Of a stretch of DNA of 34,568 nt, positions 1,483 to 34,568 are shown in pieces. Under the pieces are notes generated by a model. The model was not told where the DNA came from. It made no database searches and saw only the letters and a program-made list of their open reading frames with translations. Made by a program: the position numbers and the translations under genes. Each line of letters opens with the position of its first letter. Position 1 is the first letter of the stretch. The stretch lies in contig DVDX01000082.1 in assembly GCA_015295985.1 (NCBI GenBank), positions 1-34,568 of the forward strand, written 5' to 3'. This stretch comes from Synechococcus sp. M44_DOE_062 (GTDB lineage: Bacteria; Cyanobacteriota; Cyanobacteriia; Thermostichales; Thermostichaceae).

Positions 1483-3609
1483 TCAGTCCTCCAAAATTGT
1501 CGGCGTAATTAGGACTACAATTTCAGTTCTCTCATTTATCGTATTTTGCCTACGAAAAAGAGAACCCAGCAGAGGAATCTCAGAAAGCAGCGGAACCCTG
1601 TCAACGGATACTCGATCCTCCTCTCGTATCAAACCTCCCAAAAATAAGGTTTCTCTGTCTTTTAGTCTGGTTTGCAAAGTTCCAACAGAACGCTGGTTCA
1701 GCAAGGTAATTACCGTGCCGTCTGCCAAAGTGATTTGGCTTCCGATAGATGAAATCTGAGGAATGAGATTCAACGTAATGTAGCCGTTGTCATCAATCCT
1801 AACATTTTGAATAAGCAAGTTGACTCCCGCGTTTCCCTTCTCGAAAATAACTACTGACTGGCCTGTTGCAGGATCCGTTTGTATTCTCCTATTGGTAATG
1901 ACTTCCTGACCAACCACAACAGCCGCACCACTGTTATTGGCAACGACTACTTTTGGATCGGCCAATATCTTAGCTGTCCCCGAAGCAATAGATGCATCTA
2001 TACGAGCTGCAAGAGACTGCTGGAGCCGGTTTAAAGTATTAAATACAAGCGAGCCTCCAGTTGCTGGAGCCGGAACCGAACCAACATTAGGAACTGAGGA
2101 TCCCTCGGGTTGGCTAAGAGGAGTTCCACCAAAGGCGGTGTTGTCTCCGGATCCCAGCGCAAAGTTTCCGGATGCACCACCTAATGCAACTCCTAAGTCA
2201 GAGTTGTCGTTAAGGTTAATCTCGATAAACCTGGCGCTAATCAAGACCTGTCGACTTCTGAGATCAATTTGGGCAAGATATGCTGCTATTACATCATGCT
2301 GGGTAGGTGTGGCAACAATAGTCAGTGAATTTGTCCTTGGATCTGCTTGAATGGCCGATTCTTGAGCCAAAGGAATATTTGATGCTTCCAAAATGGCTAG
2401 AATTCTGCTTCTAATTTCACTTGGAGTGACAGCTAGCTGCCTAGCCGTGATTTCAGTTGTTCCAGCTCCACCTGCAGCACCGGCAGCAGTTAAATCAAAA
2501 TTTTGGACATCCTCTTCGATTCTCAGTTGATTGAGTCTGTACGTCTTGACAATCTGCTGACCAACTCCAGGGAGTGTAGTGCCAATGAAAACTGTTTGCC
2601 CCACGCGAGATGCTTGAAGCTCCTTCAAGCGCAAAATAAAGTTAAATGTTTCTTGTAGAGGTGAGTCAGCTACATCTAGGGAAATCGTCAGGTCTGGAGG
2701 CACATCATTGAGAACTACATTAAGCCCAGCTCGACGCACCAGTAGGCTTAAGACATCACCTACAGGAGCATCTCTTAAGGTTAAGGTGATCTTGGCGTTC
2801 GAACCCAAATCAACTGGGGGAGGAGCTGGAATAATACTGCCAACGGCAAGATCTCCAGCCGGGGGAGCCACTGCTCGACCTTGAAACGGAGAAACATCAG
2901 GATCGACAGCCCCTGGCGGCAGTTGGGGTTGGTTAAGCTGGCCCACGGAAGGCACTTGAGAAATCACGGGTGCAGTGGGAACAGCAGGTGTAGGAGGAGC
3001 CGCTTGAGCGGTCTGCGGAGGGGCAGGGTTTTGAGCGACCGGTTGGGGGGCAGGGGCAGAAGCTGTAGACTGAGGAGCAGGAGCCGCGGGCTGAGGTCGG
3101 GTTGGGGATATCGGTTGACTGGGCACTGCAGCCACTGGAGCCGGTGGGGCAGGGGGTAGGCCCTCAAAATCGAAGACCAACTGCGTCGGGCTGCGCCGAG
3201 CCAGCAAGCCTTGGGGAGCTGCTGCAATGCCGGCTATTTCTATCCGCACGCTGTCGTTGCTCAACTGCCGGGCCTCGATAAAGCGCACCCCCGGCAAGGG
3301 AGACTCTTGGCGATAGCGGCCTTGGCTCCCACTCAGTTGAGCATTGGTGATGTCCCCAATCCAAGATTGTCCCTGCTGGGTAAAGAACACCTGTGGACGG
3401 GTGCCCCCTTCCGTGTTGATCTCCAACTGCATGCGGTTGCCGTTGGGCACCAAGCGGATATCTGTGATGCGGCTGAGGCGTTGCGGGTTTGCGGAGGTCA
3501 ACTGTTGAGCGGCTGCCTCCTTGACCCAGCTTTCCAAGGCCAATGGAGGCAAAGACAGGATCAAGCTCAATGCACACCCCCATGCAACTCGACGGTTCAT
3601 CATCCTCAC
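1483..3609 (-). CDS. pilQ: Type IV pilus outer-membrane secretin PilQ
   Basis: PilQ forms the outer-membrane ring through which the type IV pilus passes. The 708-residue product shows the expected order: N-terminal hydrophobic signal (about 8-25), an AMIN peptidoglycan-binding domain (about 44-148), a long Pro/Ala-rich linker (about 150-262), an STN/secretin short domain (about 270-345), an N1-type domain (about 350-450) and the secretin beta-barrel domain (about 450-706), including VPLLSEIPLLGSLFR near the end, a secretin hallmark. The frame opens with GTG at 3609, AGG, then two ATGs at 3603 and 3600; an AAGGAG lies six bases before the GTG, so GTG is favoured. It follows pilO after 257 bases, the only wide gap in the cluster. 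Base composition drops clearly downstream of about 2880, inside the gene. Function is near certain. Confidence 0.95.
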   Translation of the reverse strand: MRMMNRRVAWGCALSLILSLPPLALESWVKEAAAQQLTSANPQRLSRITDIRLVPNGNRMQLEINTEGGTRPQVFFTQQGQSWIGDITNAQLSGSQGRYRQESPLPGVRFIEARQLSNDSVRIEIAGIAAAPQGLLARRSPTQLVFDFEGLPPAPPAPVAAVPSQPISPTRPQPAAPAPQSTASAPAPQPVAQNPAPPQTAQAAPPTPAVPTAPVISQVPSVGQLNQPQLPPGAVDPDVSPFQGRAVAPPAGDLAVGSIIPAPPPVDLGSNAKITLTLRDAPVGDVLSLLVRRAGLNVVLNDVPPDLTISLDVADSPLQETFNFILRLKELQASRVGQTVFIGTTLPGVGQQIVKTYRLNQLRIEEDVQNFDLTAAGAAGGAGTTEITARQLAVTPSEIRSRILAILEASNIPLAQESAIQADPRTNSLTIVATPTQHDVIAAYLAQIDLRSRQVLISARFIEINLNDNSDLGVALGGASGNFALGSGDNTAFGGTPLSQPEGSSVPNVGSVPAPATGGSLVFNTLNRLQQSLAARIDASIASGTAKILADPKVVVANNSGAAVVVGQEVITNRRIQTDPATGQSVVIFEKGNAGVNLLIQNVRIDDNGYITLNLIPQISSIGSQITLADGTVITLLNQRSVGTLQTRLKDRETLFLGGLIREEDRVSVDRVPLLSEIPLLGSLFRRQNTINERTEIVVLITPTILED

Positions 3610-3866
3610 ACCTCACTCCTTCACCCAACCGTGTTCCTGCTTAACCTCACCACGGGTACCTTTGGCCTCGTTCACCCCGTGCTTCCCTAATCAAAGCCGA
3701 AATCTCGGACTTTGCCACTATCTATAGCCGTTTCGGGAGAAATTTTTCCCAGATCTTCGATTCGGCAACACTACCTGTGCTGCATCGGTGGTTATCCCCG
3801 TCTGCTGAAAACCAGAAGGGGATCCCGCACTGGCAGGATCTCCCCCTGAGTCGAAGCATAGCTAGG

Positions 3867-4589
3867 CTATTGGGTAGGTGCTGCCTGTCCTCCTTCAGGA
3901 GCTGCTTGTCCTTCGGGTGCGGAGGGAGCGCCCAACGGAACGTCCTTGTTGTAGATGTAGGCAATCAAATCAAAAGCAGCGTCCAGCTCCCCTGTGTCTT
4001 GAACAGGATTTAAGCTGATGTTGCTCACCCGGAACAGCGTGCGCAGACGCTCTATATCTCCCATCACATTGATCAGCTCTGTGTAGGGACCACGCAGAGC
4101 AACACGGGTGGTTTGCACTTGGATGGCGGGAGCGATGATCCCAGGCACTTCGGGATTGGCCGAAGAGGCTGGAGTCAAAGGAGAAGGGCTAAAGCTGCGC
4201 AACTCGCTGTTGGGCTGTCCTCGCACCAGCCGGCTGAGATCCAGCAGTTGCGTGTCGGCATTCTCGGGGGTAGAGAGCAGGGCACTGATCTGTTCCCGCT
4301 CCACGCGAGCTCTCTCAATCTGGTTGGGCACATCCTGCAAACTGGCAATCTGACCCTGCACCTGCTGCAACTGGTCCTTTCTCTGGGTTACGTCTTGTTC
4401 CAAAGCCTGCACTTCTTCGATCAGAGGGCGGAGTTGGGTGAAGGCCAAAAACCCTGCTGTGCCTAGCCCTATGATCCCGATTAAAAGACCAATCCGAACG
4501 GGGGTCAGCTCCACGCCCAGGAATACCGGCGGCCCTGCCGGGGGAGCCACCAGTTGTTCGTCAGGAAAACCCTCAAGCGACCCAGTCAT
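3867..4589 (-). CDS. pilO: Type IV pilus inner-membrane platform protein PilO
   Basis: PilO pairs with PilN to link the cytoplasmic PilM ring to the PilQ secretin. The 240-residue product has a short cytoplasmic N-terminus, one transmembrane helix at about 33-53, a coiled coil at about 55-105 rich in E, Q and L, and a periplasmic ferredoxin-like domain. The C-terminus is a low-complexity Ala/Gly/Pro/Gln tail (about 218-240), which is unusual but not disabling. Its ATG shares one base with the pilN stop (TGATG), so translation is coupled. Length and order match cyanobacterial PilO. Identification rests on the topology and on position between pilN and pilQ more than on sequence motifs, since PilO is poorly conserved. 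Confidence 0.88.
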   Translation of the reverse strand: MTGSLEGFPDEQLVAPPAGPPVFLGVELTPVRIGLLIGIIGLGTAGFLAFTQLRPLIEEVQALEQDVTQRKDQLQQVQGQIASLQDVPNQIERARVEREQISALLSTPENADTQLLDLSRLVRGQPNSELRSFSPSPLTPASSANPEVPGIIAPAIQVQTTRVALRGPYTELINVMGDIERLRTLFRVSNISLNPVQDTGELDAAFDLIAYIYNKDVPLGAPSAPEGQAAPEGGQAAPTQ

Positions 4590-28976: not shown

Positions 28977-30389
28977 ATGAGTACGACAATGATCCAAAAG
29001 CTCAAGAGCCAGGTGCCCCAGTGGCTTTGGCGACCGGCCAAGTGGAGTCTGACTGCCGCTCTAATGGCTGCGCTGGTTTTTCTATTCAGCCAGGGAACTG
29101 CCTTTGCTCAAGAGGCCGAGGAAGTTCAGAAACACGCTGACGTTGTTTGGACGATCGTGTCGGCGGCCTTGGTGTTCTTCATGCAGGCGGGGTTCGCCAT
29201 GGTGGAGACGGGCCTTACCCGCGCCAAGAATGCCGCCAACATCATGATGAAGAACTTGATGGACTTCTGCATGGGCTGTTGCGCCTTCTGGTTCATCGGG
29301 TTTGGCCTCATGTTCGGCAAAAGTGCTGGCTTCTTCGGCACCGACTGGTTTGCTTTTGGCTGGCAGCAGGCTTACGAGGCAGATGGTTGGCCCTTTACTT
29401 TCTTTGTCTTCCAGATGGTGTTTGCCGCTACTGCCGCCACCATTGTTTCCGGAGCAATGGCAGAGCGCACCAAGTTCTTGGCCTACTTGATCTACTCCAT
29501 CGTCATTTCTGGGCTCATCTACCCCATCTCTGGGGGTTGGGCCTGGAATGGGCTGTTCGGCGACTACAACGGCGGAACGGCTGGCTGGCTGGAAAATCTG
29601 GGCTACATCGACTATGCCGGTTCCGGTGTGGTGCACTTGGTGGGGGGCGCTGCGGCCTTGGCAGGTGCGATTGCGCTTGGCCCTCGCATTGGCAAGTATG
29701 GCCCCAATGGGGAGCCGCGGGCTATTCCCGGCCACAACCTGCCGCTGGGGATGTTGGGGGTGTTTATCCTCGCCTTGGGCTGGATTGGGTTTAACGCCGG
29801 TTCCACTACTTCAGCCTCTGTCGATATTGGCTGGATTGCCATGAATACGTTGCTGGCAGCTTCGGCTGGAGCAATTGGGGCGATGTTCACCTCTTGGGTT
29901 CATTTTGGCAAGCCGGATATGACCTTTGCCGCCAACGGTGTCCTGGCTGGCTTGGTGGGGATCACTGCCTCTTGCGATAGCGTCCATCCTCTGGGTGCTC
30001 TGATCATTGGCTCGGTGGCCGGGATCCTGGTGGTGATTTCGGTGGTGATCCTGGATACGGTGTTGAAAATTGATGACCCGGTGGGCGCGATTTCGGTACA
30101 CGGCACCTGCGGTATCTGGGGGGTGTTGGCGGCAGGGATCCCCTTCTTTGCCAATGCCAACTATGCCGAAGAGGTCACCTGGGCCCAATTTGGGGTACAA
30201 GTGGTGGGCGCTCTGGCCTACTTCCTCTGGTCTTTCATCACCTGCTTGATCCTGTTCTTTATCCTCAAGGCTGTAACCGGCCTGCGCACCAGCGCCGAGG
30301 AAGAGATCGCTGGTTTGGATGTGGGCGAGCATGGCAACGTGGCCTACCCCGACTTCGTTACTGCTGCCACCGATTCGGAGCAATCTTGA
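28977..30389 (+). CDS. amt1: Ammonium transporter, first copy
   Basis: The 470-residue product is an Amt/MEP channel. It starts with a signal peptide (hydrophobic segment about 24-44, ending TAFAQ). The channel core follows, with FFMQAGFAMVETGLTRAKNAANIMMKNLMDF, TIVSGAMAERTKFLAYLIYS, a WAWNGLFGDYNGGTAGWL stretch and the signature DYAGSGVVHLVGGAAALAG with the first twin histidine. The second twin histidine is in ISVHGTCGIWGVLAAGI. About eleven helices and a cytoplasmic tail (about 430-470) ending in DVGEHGNVAYPDF follow. It lies directly after glnB, whose P-II protein probably gates it. Large parts are near-identical in DNA to the next gene. The numbered symbol is for reference only. Confidence 0.97.
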   Translation: MSTTMIQKLKSQVPQWLWRPAKWSLTAALMAALVFLFSQGTAFAQEAEEVQKHADVVWTIVSAALVFFMQAGFAMVETGLTRAKNAANIMMKNLMDFCMGCCAFWFIGFGLMFGKSAGFFGTDWFAFGWQQAYEADGWPFTFFVFQMVFAATAATIVSGAMAERTKFLAYLIYSIVISGLIYPISGGWAWNGLFGDYNGGTAGWLENLGYIDYAGSGVVHLVGGAAALAGAIALGPRIGKYGPNGEPRAIPGHNLPLGMLGVFILALGWIGFNAGSTTSASVDIGWIAMNTLLAASAGAIGAMFTSWVHFGKPDMTFAANGVLAGLVGITASCDSVHPLGALIIGSVAGILVVISVVILDTVLKIDDPVGAISVHGTCGIWGVLAAGIPFFANANYAEEVTWAQFGVQVVGALAYFLWSFITCLILFFILKAVTGLRTSAEEEIAGLDVGEHGNVAYPDFVTAATDSEQS

Positions 30390-30509: not shown

Positions 30510-30523
30510 GTGTAGGTGGTTAC
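30510..30523 (+). promoter_or_regulatory. Imperfect NtcA-like site before the second amt gene
   Basis: GTG, eight bases, TAC: one base from the GTA-N8-TAC core, 52 bases upstream of the ATG at 30576. The spacing would allow a -10 box near 30545, but I see only a poor TAGCTC there. Suggestive only. Confidence 0.3.
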
Positions 30524-30575
30524 TGATCAGGAGAGGGAAATAGCTCAAGATCGAGGTGTGGGACTTGGAATCGAG

Positions 30576-32063
30576 ATGAAAAGTCAGATAGGTGAGACTG
30601 TTTTCTCTCCTCTTCGGCAGGGGATCCTTTTGGGTTTGAGGGCAGGGGGGAAAGTCCTGCTGGGGGTTGGAGCTTTGCTGGGGTTGGGGAGTTTGGTTGC
30701 CCCGCCTGCTCTGGCCCAGACGGATCTCACGGCTCTGGAACAGGCTCTCCCCCCCGAGGCTTGGGCTGAGCTACAAGCCTTACTGGAAACTCAGCAATAC
30801 CATGCCGACATCGTCTGGACAACGGTGGCCGGGGCGCTGGTGTTTTTCATGCAGGCAGGCTTTGCCATGGTGGAGGCAGGCTTCACCCGCGCCAAGAATG
30901 CCGCCAACATCATGATGAAGAACTTGATGGACTTCTGCTTCGGGGCCTGCGCTTTTTGGTTTTTGGGGTTTGGGCTGATGTTCGGATCCCATGTAGCCGG
31001 TTTTTTAGGCACCAACTGGTTTTTTTTCAACTGGCAACAGGGAGCAGAAGCCGGCAGTCAAAACGATGCTTGGCCTTTCACATTCTTCTGTTTCCAGTTG
31101 GTGTTTGCCGCTACCGCTGCCACCATTGTTTCCGGAGCGATGGCAGAGCGCACCAAGTTCTTGGCCTACTTGATCTACTCCATCGTCATTTCTGGGCTCA
31201 TCTACCCCATCTCTGGGGGTTGGGCCTGGAATGGCCTGTTTGCCGACTACAACGGTGGCACAGCCGGCTGGCTGGAAAATCTGGGCTACATCGACTTTGC
31301 CGGGTCGGGGGTGGTGCACTTGGTGGGCGGGGCTGCAGCTTTCGCAGGAACTTTGGTGCTGGGGCCGCGCTTGGGCAAGTATGGTCCCAATGGGGAGCCG
31401 CGGGCTATTCCGGGGCATAGTTTACCCTTGGGCATGTTGGGGGCGTTGATCCTGTGGCTGGGCTGGATTGGCTTTAATGCCGGCTCTACAACGGCAGCGA
31501 TTCCTGATATTGGCTGGATTGCTTTCAATACCCATTTGGCCGGGGCGGCAGGAGCCATCGGTGCTCTCTGTACTTCCTGGGCCATTTTTACCAAGCCGGA
31601 CATGACGTTTGCAGCCAATGGGACACTGGCAGGGCTGGTGGGCATTACTGCTCCTTGCAACACTGTTCATCCTTTGGGGGCAATCCTTATCGGCTCGGTG
31701 GCCGGGGTGTTGGTGGTGTTGTCGGTGCTGTTTATCGAGGGCACCTTGAAAGTGGATGACCCGGTGGGGGCGGTATCGGTACATGGGGTGTGCGGCGCTT
31801 GGGGGGTCATTGCTGCAGGGATCCCATGGTTTGCCCATGCGGAAGCGGGGGTGACTTGGGCGGTGTTGCCGGTACAGATTTTGGGGGTTATCGCCCTGGG
31901 GGGATGGTCTTTTATCTGTTGTCTGGCTTTGTTTTTGATTTTGAAGGGCACCATCGGTCTGCGCGTCTCGGCAGAAGAAGAGTTGGCCGGCTTGGATATC
32001 GGCGAGCACGGCAACATTGCCTACCCTGACTTTGTCACTGCTTCGGGGGAGTTGGAAGGTTGA
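30576..32063 (+). CDS. Ammonium transporter, second copy
   Basis: This product (495 residues from the ATG at 30576) is a second Amt channel in tandem with the first. It has a signal peptide (hydrophobic region about 20-48, ending PPALAQT) and a mature N-terminal insert of about 30 residues that the first copy lacks. The same core motifs follow: ADIVWTTVAGALVFFMQAGFAMVE, AERTKFLAYLIYS, DFAGSGVVHLVGGAAAFAG with the first twin histidine, and VSVHGVCGAWGVIAAGI with the second. The tail also ends DIGEHGNIAYPDF. A GTG at 30516 would add 20 residues; I prefer the ATG with GGA and GAG nearby. Extra residues follow the third helix (EAGSQND). ispD starts 46 bases after its stop. Confidence 0.95.
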   Translation: MKSQIGETVFSPLRQGILLGLRAGGKVLLGVGALLGLGSLVAPPALAQTDLTALEQALPPEAWAELQALLETQQYHADIVWTTVAGALVFFMQAGFAMVEAGFTRAKNAANIMMKNLMDFCFGACAFWFLGFGLMFGSHVAGFLGTNWFFFNWQQGAEAGSQNDAWPFTFFCFQLVFAATAATIVSGAMAERTKFLAYLIYSIVISGLIYPISGGWAWNGLFADYNGGTAGWLENLGYIDFAGSGVVHLVGGAAAFAGTLVLGPRLGKYGPNGEPRAIPGHSLPLGMLGALILWLGWIGFNAGSTTAAIPDIGWIAFNTHLAGAAGAIGALCTSWAIFTKPDMTFAANGTLAGLVGITAPCNTVHPLGAILIGSVAGVLVVLSVLFIEGTLKVDDPVGAVSVHGVCGAWGVIAAGIPWFAHAEAGVTWAVLPVQILGVIALGGWSFICCLALFLILKGTIGLRVSAEEELAGLDIGEHGNIAYPDFVTASGELEG

Positions 32064-32953: not shown

Positions 32954-34327
32954 TCAGCTCGGAAATTGGAAAGAAGAGTAAGGGAGAGGAAATCTAGGTT
33001 CGCTAGGAGCACTTTGAGAATCCCATCTCTTGTGATCCGTTGGAAATGAAAATGATAAGTTTAGCTGTTCAGGATCTGGTGCAAATGCGCTTAAGACCAA
33101 GTAAAAGACGAGATTAATGCACTCTTCACTTTCTGTAGCAACTTGCCGTTCCGAGAAGCGAATCACGACCCAGCCCCTATCCGCTAGATGAGTATCACGC
33201 CTGTTCTGTTTGCAATCGTTTATGGTATGTATTGGAGAACGCCAGTTGCCCTCAAGAAACCAGGGCTCATCAATCTCAATGTCAATAAGTAAGCTTTGTC
33301 TATTTCTAGATACCTGCATTGCAATATCAGGTGTGTAGCCTTTATGGTAGTAGCCACTCCATCCTTGTGCTTGTATGCTAATGGCTGCATTCTGCGGAAA
33401 CAGAGTAACTTCAAAGCCATACCTCTCTAGACTTTTCACTCGCTTCCTTAAAACATCTCGAAGGAAGTTATCGAATCTCCCGGATCGAGCATCAGAAGAT
33501 GCATTAGGACGCAAGCTTTGTTGCCTAAAACTCAGCCTTACGACCTCATCTTTGTGCTTTCTTTTAATGGCCTCACATTCTGCTTCCCACTGCCGTAAAG
33601 CTTCCTGATATTTCTCCCAATGCCTTCTTCCGATGAACGTACACTCTTCCTGCCAGCGGCGTAGGATTTCTTGACATCTCTCTTCATGCTTTCTTCTGAG
33701 ATCTTCGCACTCTGCCTCCCACTGCCGCAGGGCTTCTTGATGTTCTCTCAGTCTTTCTTGGTGGGCTTGGTTAAGGATTGCGCACTCTTCCTGCCACCGG
33801 CGCAGGTCGGTCTCTTGGTACCTCCTCAGGTCTTCTTCATGCCTTCTTCTGAGATCTTCGCACTCTGCTTCCCACTGCCGTAGGGCTTCTTGATGTTCTC
33901 TCAATCTTTCTTGGTGGGCTTGGTTAAGGACTGCACACTCTTCCTGCCACTGGCGTAGTGTAGTCCCTTGATATCTCCTCAAGTCTTCTTCGTGAATTCT
34001 TTTGAGATCTTCGCACTCTGCTTCCCACCGTCGCAGCGCTTCCTGATGTTCTCTCAGTCTTTCTTGGTGGGTTTGTCTAAGGGATTCACATTCTGACTCC
34101 CAATGGCGCAGATCTTCCTCATATTTTTGTTGGTGAACCCTTCTGATCCCCTCACATCTTACTTGCCACCAATGAACATCCTCCTGATATTTACTTAGTT
34201 TTGCTCGATGAGCCTGGATGAGAGCTTCGCATTCTGCTTCCCAGCAACGCAGAGCCTCTTCATGTTCCCTTATTCTTTCTGCTCTTTCTCTCTCGTATTT
34301 TTCTTTTCTCATATGTCCATGATTCAT
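32954..34327 (-). CDS. Ten-repeat W-x3-C-x6-H coiled-coil protein with C-terminal nuclease-like domain
   Basis: I do not recognise this as a named gene. Residues about 22-260 hold ten tandem helical repeats of 22, 25 or 26 residues, each with W-x3-C-x6-H (for example WEAECEDLRRRH, and WQEECAVLNQAH with one variation). All are strongly helical, charged and likely coiled coil. Residues about 284-415 form a globular domain: RFDNFLRDVLRKRVKSLERYGFEV, then GYTPDIAM (D334), LLIDIEIDEPW (D349, E351, D353, E354), SPIHTIND, an RRDTHLADRGW helix and VVIRFSERQV, ending with EECINLVFYL. This order, D ... (D/E)x(D/K) ... R-x5-7-GW-x-V-RF, is like PD-(D/E)XK nucleases, but the usual Lys of the E-x-K is Asp here. 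ATG is at 34327. It overlaps the gene before it by 68 bases in another frame. No GGATCC occurs in it. Confidence 0.75.
   Translation of the reverse strand: MNHGHMRKEKYERERAERIREHEEALRCWEAECEALIQAHRAKLSKYQEDVHWWQVRCEGIRRVHQQKYEEDLRHWESECESLRQTHQERLREHQEALRRWEAECEDLKRIHEEDLRRYQGTTLRQWQEECAVLNQAHQERLREHQEALRQWEAECEDLRRRHEEDLRRYQETDLRRWQEECAILNQAHQERLREHQEALRQWEAECEDLRRKHEERCQEILRRWQEECTFIGRRHWEKYQEALRQWEAECEAIKRKHKDEVVRLSFRQQSLRPNASSDARSGRFDNFLRDVLRKRVKSLERYGFEVTLFPQNAAISIQAQGWSGYYHKGYTPDIAMQVSRNRQSLLIDIEIDEPWFLEGNWRSPIHTINDCKQNRRDTHLADRGWVVIRFSERQVATESEECINLVFYLVLSAFAPDPEQLNLSFSFPTDHKRWDSQSAPSEPRFPLPYSSFQFPS
33698..34080 (-). repeat. 153-base direct repeats inside the coiled-coil gene
   Basis: The string GAGATCTTCGCACTCTGC begins at 33698, 33851 and 34004, exactly 153 bases apart each time (51 codons). 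The first two copies are near-identical over their full length on inspection; the third is partial and more diverged. Each 51-residue unit comprises two W-x3-C-x6-H modules. The similarity at silent sites suggests recent expansion. Confidence 0.85.
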
Positions 34328-34568
34328 AAAGAAAACGCGCTAGCGTTGTAACACTGCCAATGCCTACCGCAACAACGAACGCTGGAGCCCCTGCAACAAT
34401 CAAGCCAACGAGCACAGCAACCCCAGCACCAGCTGTTACTGCCGACCGCAGCTTGCTCATCAAAGGCTGAGGCAACTCAGGTAGATTTGGCCTAATTGGG
34501 CGCTTCGGCATTGAGGGTAGTTCAGGTTCCCTTGGGCGCTCCGGCATCCGTGGTGGCTCCGGCTCCGG
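34260..34568 (-). CDS. Proline-rich membrane protein, N-terminus beyond window edge
   Basis: The frame is open through the right edge (upstream residues visible are PEPEPPR), so the ATG at 34547 is probably not the start. The visible part is a Pro/Glu/Arg repeat region (PERPREPELPSMPKRPI and so on), then a hydrophobic region of about 45 residues with two likely membrane helices (AVTAGAGVAVLVGLIVAG and APAFVVAVGIGSVTTLA). A very basic tail, YEKRKIRERKSRKNKGT, follows. It ends at 34260, inside the start region of the coiled-coil protein, which lies in the +1 frame. The basic tail and the coiled-coil start read the same A-rich DNA in two frames. I infer a membrane anchor that may work with the next gene; function unknown. 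Confidence 0.65.
   Translation of the reverse strand, partial: PEPEPPRMPERPREPELPSMPKRPIRPNLPELPQPLMSKLRSAVTAGAGVAVLVGLIVAGAPAFVVAVGIGSVTTLARFLYESWTYEKRKIRERKSRKNKGT

Follow-up and report, generated by a model that had tools for sequence, protein, structure and literature searches.

A Synechococcus contig ends in two overlapping reading frames that are very probably one frame-broken gene for a membrane-anchored, DUF559 nuclease-like protein

The window analysed here, 34,568 nucleotides long, is the whole of one contig (C4 of genome G000). It raises the question of whether two overlapping reading frames at its end are two genes, one gene read through a frameshift, or one gene whose frame is broken. 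The two frames encode a proline-rich membrane protein and a coiled-coil protein with a nuclease-like tail (Table 1). The contig ends at 34568, and the membrane frame therefore lacks its 5' end here. A sequence-only reading of this DNA had described the last 68 bases of the membrane frame as shared with the start of the coiled-coil frame, and the coordinates of the open reading frames (ORFs) agree with this description; the coiled-coil frame is shifted by +1 from the membrane frame. Homology identifies both frames as real coding sequence. Codon-usage log-odds, calculated for each frame, gave too weak a signal in so atypical a gene to locate the join, and a promoter and terminator scan found sites no more numerous than in shuffled sequences.

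Table 1. Positions of the two reading frames and of the features within them
Feature	Position	Strand	Remarks
Membrane ORF	34260-34568	-	102 aa, open at the contig end; Pro-rich stretch, hydrophobic hairpin, basic stretch; 5' end on contig C23
Coiled-coil and nuclease-like ORF	32954-34327	-	457 aa, ATG start
Overlap of the two frames	34260-34327	-	68 nt including the stop
Hydrophobic stretch, probably two membrane helices	34329-34442	-	Read from the sequence; hydrophobic at the same place in relatives
Single +1 frame step, range	34279-34300	-	Frame-aware alignment (34279 against L018, 34300 against L017)
A5 run (coding strand) adjoining the frame step	34298-34302	-	
Stretch in common with the end of contig C23, onto which the gene extends in the 5' direction	34550-34568	-	19 nt shared
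Tandem 153-bp repeats inside the coiled coil	33681-34082	-	2.6 copies
DUF559 (Vsr/EDxHD-like) nuclease-like tail	32957-33517	-	Pfam, alignment, model

An earlier scan of genome contigs, in which the tail from the window was the only query, yielded no relative. A class-wide search of 388 genomes returned matches in 63 genomes with the tail as the query and in 87 with a single-chain relative, L007. L017 (genome G102) and L018 (G304), which match best outside the genus, are each one open frame, of 393 and 355 codons, respectively. Both contain the same N-terminal motif and Pro-rich region, as well as the hydrophobic stretch, the coiled coil and the nuclease-like tail. The upstream ORF of the window matches the N-terminal half of these relatives, and the downstream ORF matches the C-terminal half of the same proteins. 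When the window DNA is aligned to either relative in a frame-aware manner, the full chain is recovered with one +1 step, scoring 405 versus 359 without a step against L018 and 368 versus 349 against L017.

A motif was recognised in 24 of the 28 stored loci of the tail query (unrecognised in 4), comprising 15 anchored single chains, with L022 doubtful, and 9 short forms that lack the anchor. The L007 query yielded 30 stored loci; in 10 the motif was unrecognised, and all 20 with a recognised motif are anchored single chains. Here, anchored denotes a hydrophobic stretch in the same frame, and the counts cover the stored loci. The inspection also took in 11 extra loci fetched for a partial, interrupted or weak match. 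Eight of these extra loci align in one frame by tblastn, in which an internal stop is possible. L144 changes frame inside the nuclease-like domain, L149 extends no further than the coiled coil, and L151 gave no tblastn match. A break at the site seen in the window was found neither among the stored loci with a recognised motif nor among the 11 extra loci, and no locus examined has separate genes or the same overlap at this position. In the intact relatives, which are chains of ~300-390 aa, the Pro-rich N-terminus is followed by a hydrophobic hairpin and then by a coiled-coil stalk, and the DUF559 (Vsr/EDxHD-like) domain is C-terminal. The suggestion that a membrane anchor, a coiled coil and a nuclease-like head would make sense in one chain is thus borne out by relatives with a continuous frame, and the comparison it called for found such a frame in L017, L018 and the 15 and 20 recognised anchored chains of the two queries. 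The window has homologous parts, and its own anchor, coiled coil and tail do not share one open frame.

Because these parts form one uninterrupted gene in the relatives, we conclude that the two frames very probably belong to one membrane-anchored nuclease-like gene whose frame has been broken, by mutation or by sequence error. A real mutation is the somewhat favoured cause. Less probable, but serious, is an error in the sequence or in its assembly close to where the contig ends; the sequence-only reading had also named a sequence error. For annotation, a single frame-broken gene is preferable to a pair of genes or a recoding site. A chance overlap of two unrelated genes would be compatible with the unremarkable length of the overlap, but the two ORFs match two halves of the same relatives. 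It was rejected on this homology and on the one-chain relatives, and we give it a negligible probability.

Two working genes would require a fission in this lineage into one gene for a small membrane protein and another, with its own start, for a soluble coiled-coil DUF559 protein, the two being coupled through their overlap. ATG codons at 34327 and 34312 in the coiled-coil ORF make separate translation possible, its 457-codon frame is intact with past purifying selection, and the 9 of 24 recognised tail-query loci without an anchor suggest that the domain can work unanchored. However, those short relatives also lack the coiled coil, a clear ribosome-binding site is missing before both ATG codons, the ATGA at the membrane stop lies in the third frame, and the parts are never separate at this site in the relatives examined. 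We consider a pair of working genes improbable, and the proposed tight gene coupling found no support in the start signals, the position of the ATGA or the unsplit relatives.

The DNA at the join is indeed A-rich, as had been noticed: it reads AGAAAAGAAAAATA, with an A4 run at 34304-34307 beside the A5 run. Programmed +1 (or -2) frameshifting, or slippage at this A-rich stretch, could produce the full chain, and would be consistent with two frames that are jointly open for 77 nt and with a coiled-coil frame kept by selection. The needed direction is +1, however, and the overlap contains no -1 slippery heptamer. The longest A run is of five, a length of limited distinction in a window that holds 58 A or T runs of at least five, and no relative examined has the shift, so there is no conserved site. 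On these grounds the claim of a programmed frameshift is not supported, and we regard it as highly unlikely. A similarly slim chance is left for a frame change that the cell uses, in which an occasional +1 shift would give an anchored DUF559 nuclease and a start at 34327 or 34312 a free form, making the anchor switchable.

The overlap itself offers little that is peculiar. We simulated a break, with either shift, at every codon from 100 to 179 in 11 intact relatives (1760 cases); the median jointly open length was 69 nt, and it was at least 68 nt in 51% of the cases. Because simulated breaks leave joint-open lengths similar to that of the window, the length of the overlap is ordinary, as any frame break in these genes would give. 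Both readings across the overlap had also been described as charged and basic. They do look so, largely as a matter of composition, with a purine content of 87% over 34260-34312.

Under the broken-gene explanation, a single +1 frame change just past the second helix would split the anchor from the stalk and head. Ribosomes that begin at the gene's own start would terminate at 34260, leaving an anchor stub of ~144 aa, and the head would be made only with a fresh ribosome start at 34327 or 34312. In an unbroken chain, the hairpin would lie in the membrane, the basic stretch that follows helix 2 would probably face the cytoplasm, and the coiled-coil stalk would hold the DUF559 head, which may act on DNA near the membrane. 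In the intact relatives, the nuclease-like head is most likely held at the cytoplasmic face of the membrane. We infer both this topology and the loss of function.

The coiled coil of the window grew by tandem duplication of a 153-bp (51-codon) unit; that of the intact relatives is much shorter. The repeat copies provide a record of selection. The duplication is old enough for dS to have reached 0.42 between them, and dN/dS is 0.17 in the coiled-coil frame versus 0.93 and 1.32 in the other two frames. Compared with the remnants of the gene in genome G002 of the same genus, the tail (115 codons) has a dN/dS of 0.34 and the membrane part one of 0.33. No further disabling change is present over the 457 codons of the coiled-coil frame. 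Judging from these substitution patterns, the coiled-coil frame was translated under selection long after the duplication. Because the dN/dS of 0.17 is combined with 457 otherwise intact codons, the break is recent, tolerated or artefactual, and an old dead gene is unlikely. A comparison of PII, an amt gene and ispD with G002 revealed no frame-breaking indels in these conserved neighbours, and a generally error-rich assembly is therefore not favoured.

The missing 5' end was located by a search of the window's own genome with the G002 locus as the query. At its end, contig C23 encodes MEVQSRHLHPILKYVRDDYYPYVVLPHPIDLHLRGPDLPPRPPEPEPP, in frame with the membrane ORF. The assembly break falls inside the Pro-rich repeats, which are more numerous in G002, and the number of repeats between C4 and C23 is therefore uncertain.

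Within the genus, the coiled-coil and tail ORF has a match in 2 of the 6 genomes. G002 holds the only other copy found, and its 5' and 3' parts flank a TnpB-type gene; this copy is broken too, by the TnpB-type element. The TnpB-type gene itself (positions 3263-4501 of the G002 locus, L016) contains OrfB_IS605 and Cas12f1-like TNB domains and sits between the two remnants. All 6 genus genomes have ispD, and blastn with the window end and C23 against the stored stretches around ispD in G001, G003, G004 and G005 detected no trace of the gene. A weak match to the membrane part in G004 (E 0.009) sits in an unrelated 367-codon frame. Decay of a dispensable gene is plausible, because the G002 copy is broken and 4 of the 6 genus genomes have no match. 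Elsewhere in the window, two ammonium transporter genes lie in tandem (28977-30389 and 30516-32063); the matching stretch of G002 (L016) shows one.

Pfam (E up to 1) and NCBIfam scans of the full 457-aa ORF did not list DUF559. The tail scanned alone matched DUF559 (PF04480) with 22.3 bits, where the Pfam cut-off is 20.6, through the last part of the model only (64-104 of 109), and L018 (22.6) and L017 (21.3) also passed the cut-off. In an alignment of 40 sequences of the tail (A4), 37 members match DUF559 at E up to 0.1, and I78, D79, E81, D83, E84, P85 and H97 are among the invariant positions. These positions fit an active site, and we presume that they have catalytic roles. An AlphaFold2 model of the tail built with 40 sequences has a mean pLDDT of 82.3 and a pTM of 0.80. 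It superimposes on 3hrl with a Z score of 9.4 and an rmsd of 2.0 over 93 residues, on I-Bth0305I with a Z score of 8.5 and on Vsr with a Z score of 6.9; Foldseek E-values for the model were weak (best 0.026, none at or below 0.001). Together, the profile match and the predicted fold indicate that the tail is a DUF559 (Vsr/EDxHD-like) domain, and it may be regarded as a putative nuclease. One paper places a DUF559-containing gene in the EDxHD family of homing endonucleases (PMC9403480).

The frameshift itself is ordinary; of more interest is a by-product of this study, the family of anchored DUF559 proteins. Members with an anchor and a coiled coil occur across Cyanobacteria, and Bacteroidota have anchored relatives with a DUF559-like domain; in some cases a UvrD-like helicase or a second nuclease-like domain is fused to the chain. 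Such an architecture hints at DNA processing at the membrane. The accessible portions of the literature on DUF559 in connection with cyanobacteria, transmembrane proteins, defense or helicases, and membrane anchoring contain no description of the anchored family. In PADLOC searches, the window ORF and L018 matched only over their coiled-coil stretches (E 0.0006-0.005), unconvincingly for the window protein, and the helicase part of L107 matched GajB-type helicases. Among the short forms, eight loci (L028, L029, L030, L033, L036, L041, L042 and L044) have a DUF559-like domain without an anchor, followed by a C-terminal cysteine-rich stretch that resembles a zinc ribbon by eye. Several Bacteroidota loci (L095 3512-5368, L092 3413-5365 and similar ones among L089-L143) encode proteins of ~600-650 aa with an extra C-terminal domain, weakly PDDEXK_1-like in L095.

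The cyanobacterial relatives L017, L018, L107 and L126 have the same order of parts as the window, but in one open frame and with a shorter coiled coil. In L107 (3413-5953) and L126 (3347-5848), from the Synechococcaceae MAGs SM2_3_1 and SM2_3_2, the same frame runs on into a UvrD-like helicase. The Bacteroidota relatives L092 and L095 likewise combine a hydrophobic N-terminal stretch and a DUF559-like domain in one frame, whereas by eye they lack such a coiled coil and they carry the second C-terminal domain. The EDxHD endonucleases Vsr and I-Bth0305I resemble the tail in its predicted fold and in the invariant D, E and H positions, but neither a mismatch repair nor an intron or intein setting is seen here. 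The DUF559 protein NGO0050 (3hrl) shares with the tail both its sequence family and its predicted fold. In contrast to NGO0050 and other DUF559 proteins, the domain here is preceded by a membrane anchor and a long coiled coil.
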